This document shows positions 23,860 to 26,865 of a stretch of 64,000 nucleotides of DNA, in pieces. The stretch is taken from NCBI GenBank assembly GCA_020847375.1, contig JADLCB010000014.1, positions 124,001-188,000 of the forward strand, read 5' to 3'. Each line of letters starts with the position of its first letter. Position 1 is the first letter of the stretch. This stretch comes from Phycisphaerales bacterium (GTDB lineage Bacteria; Planctomycetota; Phycisphaerae; Tepidisphaerales; Tepidisphaeraceae). The notes under the pieces are model-generated. The model saw nothing but the letters and a program-made list of their open reading frames with translations, was not told the DNA's origin and made no database searches. A program made the translations under genes and the position numbers.

Positions 23860-24000
23860 GTATACTGCGCTCCAATAATTTATCTTTCCTATAGACTAAG
23901 GGGATTATTGCATGAACCGGGTGCAAAATTCAACCCCACGCAAGCAAACGATGATAGGACGGGTTGGCCATGTTGGTCATCCGGGGAGGAAAAATTGCAA

Positions 24001-24237
24001 CTATATACTTGACGCAGTGAGGAGATAGGGTGGCGGAACGGGCAGGATGCTTGGCTTATTTTTCCCTCGCCTAGGTTTCGCACGTGGCGTGGCGTGAGGC
24101 CGTGGAACTATGGCGGGTGCAATGGATATCAAGTGCGTTAGTGTGCCCCGGAACCGCTCGGCGGCCAATGATCCTTCGAGATAGTCACCACGGGAGGTAT
24201 GAGGCCGTTCTTGCGAATTGCGTGATTTTGTTGCCAT
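24001..24237 (-). CDS. Possible small basic protein downstream of the PIN gene
   Basis: A frame of 78 codons starting at ATG 24237, two bases after the PIN gene stop (or GTG 24243, overlapping the stop as GTGA), with GGAG within the end of the PIN gene. The product is rich in Arg, Lys and Pro (for example TKSRNSQERPHTSRGDYLEG) and matches nothing I know. Tight coupling to the PIN gene is the only support, and the C-terminal half looks poorly protein-like. It could be a small third component or a chance frame. Confidence 0.25.
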   Translation of the reverse strand: MATKSRNSQERPHTSRGDYLEGSLAAERFRGTLTHLISIAPAIVPRPHATPRAKPRRGKNKPSILPVPPPYLLTASSI

Positions 24238-24239
24238 CG

Positions 24240-24731
24240 TCACTCCGAAACGTCGAGGGTCATTTGGCCGAATTCTCCTGGTCGTTTAATAGGCAAGGCG
24301 GGAGAACCGATAGTGCCATTCTTGCCTAAAAGCTTGTCCGCATCCCCGCCATCCCCGTCATAGGTATAGAATACACGGCACTCAGTGCGGATAGCAGTCG
24401 CAACATGAATAGCATCCGGCGGCTTTAATCGATGGTTTCTAACAATTTCAGCAGCTTGCCGGGCAACAATTCTGTCCACCGGAACAACGCGGATGAACTT
24501 GTGACGGAAATATGAATCAATTTGCTGTCGTTCCGGCTCTGATAGCTCATTATTCGTCCCAAGTCGAACCACCTCCGCTATCGTTAATGCGGACGTAAAA
24601 ATGGCTAATTTTCCGCCTTTAGCCTGAGATTCCAATTCTGCAATCTGGGGCCAACGAGAGCGGGTCTTGCGTAGGCCATCAATAAATACGCAGGAATCCC
24701 AATAGATTGACTCCACATTATTATTGCCCAT
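24240..24731 (-). CDS. PIN-domain ribonuclease-like protein (VapC-like toxin candidate)
   Basis: 163 residues with the four acidic positions of PIN nucleases: Asp in YWDSCVFIDGL, Glu in TIAEVV, Asp in LKPPDAIHVATA, and Asp in YTYDGDGG. PIN toxins usually cut tRNA or rRNA. The C-terminal tail beyond the fourth acidic residue is longer than in most VapC proteins. The gene overlaps the upstream 244-residue gene by 11 bases, so the two are translated as a pair. No usual VapB-type antitoxin (short, with a DNA-binding fold) is nearby. The locus is more AT-rich than its surroundings and lies beside a decayed insertion sequence. The PIN call is firm; toxin function is inferred. Confidence 0.85.
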   Translation of the reverse strand: MGNNNVESIYWDSCVFIDGLRKTRSRWPQIAELESQAKGGKLAIFTSALTIAEVVRLGTNNELSEPERQQIDSYFRHKFIRVVPVDRIVARQAAEIVRNHRLKPPDAIHVATAIRTECRVFYTYDGDGGDADKLLGKNGTIGSPALPIKRPGEFGQMTLDVSE

Positions 24732-25455
24732 CGCGCAGCTGCCTTATGTATTGTTCCGACGACATCGCTCCGGCCAAATCAATCGGCGACATTTCCGAGA
24801 ACAACAGTGGAGGCGCGTCATCCAAAGATTCGATAGTTTCGACTTGGATAGATACCGGCAAATCATCATTGGCACGATATTTTACAATACCAGCCGCAAT
24901 GATTCGCTTGCCGATGTTTCTTTTTACTGCCTCTAGAAGTTCATCGGGAAATTTGCAACGAATCTCCCGATGGTCAACATCATCAAATATGCTGAATTTT
25001 GCGGTAGTATGAACGTTTACAATATCCAAGGTTCCATCAATCGATCCTTGCGCCATGTAAAAACCACGAGATAGCGATTGCTGGGCATTTCTAAATAGTT
25101 GCGCCGTGGGCTGAAATTCCGGCTGTCCTTCCGGTTCAAAAATAACCTTCGTGTCGTTCTCGATACGTTTGCCGAGCCGTTTGACTGCCTTGGTGGCGTT
25201 GGAATTCAACGGATTTGGTTTTCCGTCTTCAATTTTTTTCATGCCGAACACAAGAAGCATGAATACCGCCCATTGGCTTGCCAAGACGACTTTCATGGGG
25301 CTATTTTTTTGCAGTGAAATTATTTGCCAGTCAGGATTCTTGCCTTGTTCCGTGGCAATCGCATCCAGTGCATCCAGAACATCATCCAAGACATTACAGA
25401 ACGCGCGTGCATCAGCGTTTTTGGTAACGACCGTTATATTCAGGCGTTCGGACAT
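24721..25455 (-). CDS. Uncharacterised 244-residue partner of the PIN protein
   Basis: Begins MSERLNITVVTKNADARAF and ends SSEQYIRQLRDGQ. The first half is mixed alpha/beta, and the second half, from about residue 135, looks beta-rich (GSIDGTLDIVNVHTTAKFSI, IIAAGIVKYRANDDLPVSIQ). No signal peptide, membrane segment or known DNA-binding motif is visible. It lies directly upstream of the PIN gene and overlaps it by 11 bases, the position of an antitoxin, but it is about three times the size of a typical VapB. It may be an antitoxin, a regulator or the sensor of a two-gene defence module. I recall similar C-termini beside PIN genes elsewhere but cannot confirm this here. Confidence 0.75.
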   Translation of the reverse strand: MSERLNITVVTKNADARAFCNVLDDVLDALDAIATEQGKNPDWQIISLQKNSPMKVVLASQWAVFMLLVFGMKKIEDGKPNPLNSNATKAVKRLGKRIENDTKVIFEPEGQPEFQPTAQLFRNAQQSLSRGFYMAQGSIDGTLDIVNVHTTAKFSIFDDVDHREIRCKFPDELLEAVKRNIGKRIIAAGIVKYRANDDLPVSIQVETIESLDDAPPLLFSEMSPIDLAGAMSSEQYIRQLRDGQ

Positions 25456-25576
25456 ATTTTTCGTTTGCCTCTTCGCTGTCGATTCATGATACCAACGTCT
25501 GCTGCTGTTCCCCGATCAATCCTTTATACGTCAACCGCTTACCGTCCACTTGCCTCAGCACTTTCAAGAATCTGCC

Positions 25577-26421
25577 TCAGTCTTCCACCTTGCGATTATT
25601 GGACCGAAAAGCCTCTGCATCAAGGTATCGAAAAAGATGGAAGCGCTCTACAGAAATATGCTTACCCTTGATGCACAGCTTGAACAGGCTCCAATAATTT
25701 TTTAGGCCGTTCGTGTGGATGTTGCCTTTGACATAACATTCCGCATAGTCAATCACCGAATGAACGTACTCGGGCACAAGGCCATTGTATCGCGCCAGCG
25801 CATCGGTGAAAACGGCCGTTCCCTTTTCAACATGTCGGCGGACAATGGGCTGTAGCGTTCACCTACGGGTATTATCGACCACAAAGGTACGAACTTCTCC
25901 ATGCCTTTACAGCAGTCCCATAACAAGGGCCTTCCTGACTGCGTCACGGCCGTTGGCCTTACGGCGACCGGGGCGTATGTTGCGAGCCTTGCCCTCGATG
26001 AACGTCTCGTCGCCCTCGACTTCTCCGACAAGCATCTTGTCAAACGTGCCGGTCTACAGTGCCAACCGAATGCGATGCTGCAGGAACCACGCCGTTTTTT
26101 GAGTTACTCCAAGGTGGCGACTGACTTCGTAGCTGCTAATGGAATTCTCGGCGCTCACTACCAGCCAAACGGCTATAAGGCATTTATCGATTGACAGCTC
26201 GCAATCTTCAAAATCGTCCCAACCTTGATCGAAAATTGGCGTCGGGTATGCTTTTCTAGGCATTCACAAGTGCACCGGGTCGGGATGTACAGAACACGCT
26301 CCGATCCGCAATGCTGGCAGCGAACCCCTAGCGGCCACCGGATTTTGGCAAAGAATTTTGTTGCAACGTCCAGATCAGAAAACACGCGGGCGACTTCGAT
26401 CGGCGTTCCCGGGAATTGCAT
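25577..26421 (-). pseudogene. Decayed IS1595 (ISXO2-like) transposase
   Basis: Pieces of one transposase lie in order on the minus strand but in different frames. They are an N-terminal zinc ribbon with CQHCGSERVLYI and CTCECLEKHTRRQFSIKVGT (26173-26421), a helix-turn-helix part ISSYEVSRHLGVTQKTAWFL (26054-26263), a scrambled middle (about 25753-26043), and a C-terminus HTNGLKNYWSLFKLCIKG plus FHLFRYLDAEAFRSNNRK (25577-25777). At least three frameshifts break the gene, so it is inactive. Terminal inverted repeats could not be identified. It separates the PIN module from the HicB-like gene and marks this stretch as a landing zone for mobile DNA. Confidence 0.85.
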
Positions 26422-26610
26422 ATCGCTGATATCCGCGCCTGTATTGTAATGTGCCTAGGCTACTGAGCCAAATACATTATTGCGAAAAAATGCCTGGTCG
26501 AGGGGATGATTTGGTAAAACAAGTCACAAAATGAGATTTTCCGAATATTGCGGTACAAAGTTTTGCTTGACAGAACTTCAGGACTATTTGGACAATGTTG
26601 ACAGGCCATT

Positions 26611-26865
26611 ATGAAGCAGAATTTTCATACCATTTTCAAGCCTGATCGCAACGGTTGGTTTGTCGGCTGGGTGGAGGAGATTCCCGGTACGATCACCTAT
26701 GGCAAGTCGTTGGAAGACTGTCGGCGCAATCTGAAAGCCTCATTGCAACTGATGCTCGACACCAATCGGGATGAAGCGCGCCGCTGGCTGGCGCCGGGGT
26801 GCATTCAGGAGGCGATGGAAATCGACACCAGCGAAGATCGGATCATTTTTACCTCCGCCCACTGA
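26611..26865 (+). CDS. HicB-like (UPF0150) protein without a HicA partner
   Basis: 84 residues with the HicB partial RNase H-like fold: HTIFKPDRNGWFVGWVEEIP, GTITYGKSLEDCRRNLKASL. In toxin-antitoxin pairs HicB neutralises the HicA ribonuclease, but no HicA-like frame lies on either side, and there is no C-terminal DNA-binding domain. It may be an orphan antitoxin, a remnant, or a stand-alone regulator. The adjacent IS remnant upstream offers a possible reason for loss of a partner. Confidence 0.8.
   Translation: MKQNFHTIFKPDRNGWFVGWVEEIPGTITYGKSLEDCRRNLKASLQLMLDTNRDEARRWLAPGCIQEAMEIDTSEDRIIFTSAH

Follow-up and report, generated by a model that had tools for sequence, protein, structure and literature searches.

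A PIN-domain gene and its OB-fold partner, probably a toxin-antitoxin-like module, are cargo of IS1595-family transposons and persist in a decayed copy between korA and hicB

The antitoxins associated with PIN proteins are described as small proteins of the HTH, RHH, AbrB or MerR types (PMC2701414). Toxin-antitoxin (TA) pairs are carried by Tn3-family transposons as conserved passengers, some of them with PIN toxins, the combinations being PIN_3 with RHH_6, PIN with Phd (Phd/YefM) and PIN with AbrB, and in one Tn5501 variant a truncated toxin lies beside an intact antitoxin (Lima-Mendez 2020, PMC7157771). In the two-gene PIN system DS-5, the partner carries DUF5830 and an AcrIF4-like domain and is needed for defence, not for restraint, and its deletion did not unleash toxicity (PMC13092281). 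By analogy, DS-5 warns that a PIN protein and its partner need not be a TA system. Transposons of the IS1595 family that carry passenger genes were reportedly described by Siguier, Gagnevin and Chandler in 2009. An IS1595 element with a PIN and OB-fold pair as its cargo was not found in the literature searched.

The locus studied here lies in a stretch of 64,000 nucleotides from a Phycisphaerales bacterium, hereafter called the window, and its features are collected in Table 1. It resembles VapBC in several respects: the PIN protein has four acidic residues and a VapC-like fold, and the partner gene is located directly upstream in the same operon and overlaps it, an antitoxin-first order known from type II TA systems. 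The partner, in contrast, is three times the usual size of VapB, a DNA-binding protein of about 75 residues, and combines an OB-fold with an N-terminal domain of no known family. Since it lacks the antitoxin domain by which VapBC is defined, the module is not filed as VapBC. In our opinion, the pair is probably a TA-like two-gene module that travels as cargo of an IS1595-family transposon, of which the window holds a decayed copy between korA and hicB; the TA reading is supported indirectly, by gene order, overlap, polarity of decay and the C-terminal tail of the partner.

Table 1. Positions of the module, its carrier and the predicted parts of the partner protein (nucleotide positions refer to the window, residues to the partner)
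Feature	Position	Strand	Description
PIN gene	24240-24731	-	163 aa; VapC-like putative ribonuclease; PF01850, E 1.4e-16
Partner gene	24721-25455	-	244 aa; ATG start, TAA stop; proposed antitoxin/regulator
Overlap of 11 nt (end of partner gene, start of PIN gene)	24721-24731	-	translational coupling
Third frame	24001-24243	-	GTG start, 80 codons; regarded as non-coding (spacer from PIN stop to terminal repeat)
Whole degenerate IS1595-family transposon	23996-26484	-	2489 bp; transposase - partner - PIN
Decayed IS1595-family transposase	25511-26382	-	directly upstream of partner, same strand; frameshifts, in-frame stops
PIN-side terminal inverted repeat	23996-24019	+	TGCAACTATATACTTGACGCAGTG; 16/24 to consensus GGCGATTATATACTTGACAAACCC, shuffle p 0.009
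Transposase-side terminal inverted repeat	26461-26484	-	reads inward CGCAATAATGTATTTGGCTCAGTA
Partner N-terminal alpha/beta domain	residues 1-129		AlphaFold2 model
Partner OB-fold (beta-barrel)	residues 132-210		AlphaFold2 model
Partner C-terminal helix SSEQYIRQLRDGQ	residues 233-242		AlphaFold2 model; preceded by flexible, lower-confidence linker

The catalytic quartet of the PIN protein (D12, E53, D106 and D125) is complete in the window copy and well conserved among 87 homologues, in which the four positions are retained in 85, 87, 87 and 83 sequences, respectively. Its AlphaFold2 model (pLDDT 92.8) has VapC20 of M. tuberculosis as best match in the PDB (E 1.2e-5), with other VapC toxins also near. 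From these data we infer a VapC-like ribonuclease, whose activity is predicted. The VapC-like fold, together with the antitoxin-first order of overlapping genes, could be taken to indicate an ordinary VapBC system with an enlarged antitoxin and no new mechanism. This explanation appears very unlikely, as the NCBIfam VapC equivalog does not call the window PIN (16.9 bits, with the cut-off at 80), no AbrB, RHH, Phd, HTH or MerR domain was found with any library in the window partner or in 75 homologues, and the partner is modelled as an alpha/beta domain followed by an OB-fold.

The preliminary description of this DNA had noted that the PIN gene overlaps by 11 bases a gene for a 244-residue protein of no recognised family. 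The coordinates were correct. Indeed, neither Pfam nor NCBIfam has a family that the protein matches above the curated cut-off, and no match in PADLOC or PHROGs was credited; PF23759 and YfbV were discarded as candidate families, their matches being below cut-off and not common to the homologues. Across homologous pairs, the length of the partner centres on 248 residues. An alignment of eight partners contained no stretch sufficiently conserved for pattern scans, and an AlphaFold2 model built from an alignment of 62 rows reached a pLDDT of 92.2 and a pTM of 0.73. In Foldseek comparisons the predicted barrel matches the OB-folds of SSB, of the Lys- and Asp-tRNA synthetases and of ExoVII (E 1e-3 to 1e-2). 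Over its full length, the modelled fold resembles unnamed phage proteins in BFVD, one of which is labelled DUF6575 (E 5e-10 to 3e-8); a search for DUF6575 in 99 genomes of the phylum gave no match, the controls likewise giving none. The tails of the partners come in two types, ...DxTGGxDsaEYvRrLRD, to which the window copy belongs, and ...LPtadDVRGIl, and a conserved tail arginine is missing in one subgroup (L006, L007, L009), a point against the TA-like reading. In two homologous loci the partner frame is extended at its N-terminus before the family domain, by about 290 codons in L069 (2172-3806) and by about 230 codons in L090 (2661-3992), which may be fusions or merely open frames.

That the 244-residue protein might repeatedly neighbour PIN genes was already envisaged, and the pairing turned out to be near-obligate. 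In GTDB genomes, the partner lies directly upstream of the PIN gene in 79 of the 80 loci retrieved with the PIN as query, a count that includes one doubly decayed copy (L112); the sole exception, L110, is at a contig end with only 180 bp upstream. The same arrangement is found in 12 of 12 distinct viral loci of IMG/VR obtained in the PIN-first way. Searches starting from the partner lead to the same picture. Specifically, six further homologues of about 20-30% identity in 397 genomes of the same class are all directly followed by a PIN gene, and a phylum-wide partner profile added seven more, all with PIN, after the removal of one false positive. A class-wide search around an alphaproteobacterium found PIN in 11 more loci. 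In L014 and L016 the PIN comes from another branch; among partner-first loci, L134 has no PIN downstream and L135 stops at the contig edge. Of 94 homologous pairs, nearly all have a gap of -20 to +6 nt between partner and PIN, and the pairwise distances of the two proteins are strongly correlated (r 0.88 over 82 pairs; maximum of 2000 shuffles 0.22). Taken together, the PIN-first, partner-first, gap and distance results speak against homologues occurring mostly without PIN, and show that partner and PIN form one conserved, overlapping and co-inherited gene pair. A GTDB scan with the single partner sequence returned nothing, because the partner is too divergent, and the PIN alignment succeeded where that query had failed; one partner subgroup, used as query against viral sequences, likewise gave no match. 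Three candidate loci (L017, L140, L141) were rejected as false positives with other domains.

In many relatives, the pair lies within a mobile element. Upstream of the partner and on the same strand, 36 of 102 evaluable loci encode an IS1595-family transposase at a distance of 18-129 bp; none of 13 control loci does. DDE_Tnp_IS1595 (PF12762) was recognised in 17 of 117 flanking proteins, while other domains, with the exception of the zinc ribbon of IS1595 itself, occurred at most twice. The transposase is open and near full-length in 21 loci outside the window. In loci with an intact transposase, terminal inverted repeats of about 24 bp, close to GGCGATTATATACTTGACAAACCC, bracket the transposase, partner and PIN genes; these repeats were missed by a generic repeat search and became visible by comparison with intact relatives. 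Both repeats together with perfect 8-bp target duplications are present in 16 loci, 15 of them distinct as L127 repeats L067, and the intact elements measure 2.4-3.1 kb. In addition, the transposase diversifies together with the partner (r 0.62, p 0.0004, 19 loci). These observations establish an IS1595-family transposon with a two-gene partner-PIN cargo, which shares with the known passenger transposons of this family a DDE transposase, terminal inverted repeats, a cargo located downstream of the transposase and, in the 16 loci just mentioned, an 8-bp duplication. With the Tn3 passengers it has in common that the pair travels inside a transposon; the Tn3 elements, however, have tnpA and a resolvase, and the carrier described here belongs to the IS1595 family and brings a partner with an OB-fold. 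Locus L034 (3013-4616) is a derivative of 1604 bp that lacks the transposase and contains, between terminal repeats and with a TTCAATTA duplication, little more than partner and PIN; that is, a non-autonomous mobile TA-like unit. About two thirds of the loci have no transposase nearby, and therefore the pair also travels without it.

The copy in the window is a dead transposon inserted between korA and hicB, dead because its transposase is broken. The transposase, the only one of the IS1595 family in the host genome, matches PF12762 (E 7.3e-31) with stops inside the match. The two terminal repeats agree with each other at 16 of 24 positions (shuffle p 0.002), and the transposase-side repeat agrees to the same extent with the verified repeat of L034 (16/24, p 0.012). 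The flanks of the element are A-rich (GGAAAAAT / AAAAAATG) and no clean 8-bp duplication remains. In four relatives (L116, L117, L121 and L123), korA and a HicB-like gene are separated by 225-390 bp with nothing between them, as opposed to 2751 bp in the window; removal of the element and 8 bp would leave a gap of about 255 bp, within the range of the relatives. The empty site thus indicates that the pair inserted there and that HicB is an old neighbour. The HicB-like orphan itself (26611-26865) is 58-65% identical to its counterparts beside korA in the four same-family relatives and has no evident HicA.

These results change how the surroundings of the pair are to be read. A broken insertion sequence had been noticed alongside; it is present, as an IS1595 transposase with frameshifts and stops, but it is no mere neighbour: one and the same element comprises this transposase and the pair. 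The patch had rightly been called AT-richer, with 49.7% GC at 23996-26484 against 56.3% in the remaining window. The orphan HicB had been counted as context of the module and belongs instead to the inherited surroundings of korA, which four relatives without the module share. As for the small frame thought to be coupled to the PIN stop, it ends within the terminal repeat, belongs to no family and has no relative in any fetched locus, and for the first and last of these reasons it was rejected as a gene. The proposal of an undescribed PIN module with a large partner in antitoxin position is well supported by the near-obligate pairing across many phyla; it lapses for the third frame and HicB as context, and its anti-phage reading finds hardly any support.

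The PIN-first loci span 17 named phyla, one of which, Verrucomicrobiota (L112), is represented by a decayed copy only, so that the module occurs in at least 16. Among them are Planctomycetota, the phylum of the host, Pseudomonadota, Actinomycetota, Cyanobacteriota, Latescibacterota, Nitrospinota, Armatimonadota, Chloroflexota and Gemmatimonadota, and the module is also found in IMG/VR contigs and in a Pseudomonas phage. Within classes it is sparse: 7 of 397 genomes carry it in the class of the host, and a search of 385 genomes from another class yielded about 13 true matches. In the phage, vB_PaeS_AV001 (L010, PQ349086.1, 2551-3907), the pair corresponds to genes 054/055 beside a repressor, and the PIN is annotated 'repressor protein'.

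A fixed order of transposase, partner and PIN in one apparent operon, and the co-diversification of transposase and cargo, would also be expected if the cargo served the self-control of the transposon, with the PIN cutting the transposase mRNA or the OB protein binding the element ends and copy number kept at one. Each of the 19 genomes searched does hold a single copy, which is weak evidence since MAG assemblies collapse identical copies. We regard self-control as rather improbable, given that the module remains intact in copies with a dead transposase, the window copy among them, and persists in loci devoid of transposase and in a phage. The cargo genes of the window copy are open although the transposase is ruined, which would suggest that the pair is maintained in its own right.

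The decay of the module has a direction. Both genes are intact in 93 of 114 non-redundant loci, and six loci (L048, L077, L097, L105, L129 and L133) combine an intact partner with a broken PIN. A truncated PIN beside an intact partner is also seen in L015 and L016, and both genes are damaged in L103, L106 and L112. None of the 114 loci has an intact PIN beside a partner that is clearly broken, L076 being cut at a contig edge. If breaks were random by length, the finding of six out of six in the PIN, which makes up 40% of the coding length, would have a p of about 0.004, a value derived from small counts in which many genomes are MAGs prone to frame errors. Moreover, a PIN-first search favours intact PINs, and its bias therefore runs against the observed polarity. 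A broken PIN beside an intact partner fits a toxin plus antitoxin, and is the pattern of the Tn5501 variant mentioned above; of the indirect evidence that the PIN is the toxin, this polarity is the best. In L103 (4468-7229), the doubly decayed pair is followed by tandem ATPase-like genes, which enclose a further PIN fragment.

Such a polarity is not predicted by a two-component defence against phages or other elements outside the TA scheme, in which the OB-fold partner would recognise the nucleic acid of an invader and direct or switch on the PIN. On this hypothesis both genes would be required and the PIN alone would be harmless, as exemplified by DS-5, where a PIN and its partner provide defence and no toxicity arises when the partner is absent (PMC13092281). 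DS-5 and the present pair have in common that one of two proteins is a PIN nuclease and the other not a known antitoxin; they differ in the DUF5830 of the DS-5 partner, which is not among the matches listed for 76 partners here and gave no match in the window copy. The modelled OB-fold may suggest nucleic-acid recognition, and the presence of the module in IMG/VR contigs and next to the phage repressor is in line with defence. Among the genes next to the module, on the other hand, IS1595 transposases and housekeeping genes prevail over defence genes. Distant partner branches weakly match PDC-M32A (E 9e-5), a component of the PADLOC candidate PDC-M32. Identity with that candidate system was not supported: the window partner gives only E 0.014, and a true PDC-M32A member is not aligned by the profile (probability 1.2%) and is not followed by a PIN gene. 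On balance, defence without a TA is an unlikely alternative. As a separate observation, a Methylobacterium genome (G750, L113) has, besides the PIN pair, a gene that is a strong candidate for PDC-M32A (E 9e-48); the gene after it encodes 137 aa and matches no Pfam family.

Under the favoured TA-like reading, the partner would be made first and, by translational coupling, be followed by the PIN, which it would bind through its C-terminal tail and hold inactive. The OB-fold may sense or bind nucleic acid, that is, operator DNA, tRNA or other RNA, or single-stranded DNA. Loss of a labile partner would then free the PIN nuclease. The advantage would lie in the retention of the element by its host and, in a possible second role, in protection from other invading elements. 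No match was obtained in 72,556 plasmids with three queries, which would be unusual if the pair were an addiction module. A more speculative proposal, which we put forward tentatively and consider on the whole unlikely, is that of a transposon-carried exclusion system, in which the OB-fold sensor would release the PIN ribonuclease upon detection of foreign or replicating nucleic acid. If true, phage single-stranded DNA, tRNA damage or a second copy of the element might act as triggers, and the element would guard the host cell from rivals and itself from loss.

The pair adds an unnamed antitoxin-like family, made of an OB-fold and a tail and associated with PIN proteins across at least 16 phyla as well as in phages. 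In addition, IS1595 elements would represent a second transposon family, besides Tn3, that apparently carries a TA-like pair, a finding that bears on the question whether TA modules serve their mobile carriers. As small intact elements of 2.4-3.1 kb have been identified, direct tests are within reach for toxicity and its neutralisation, for an influence on transposition and for protection against phages.
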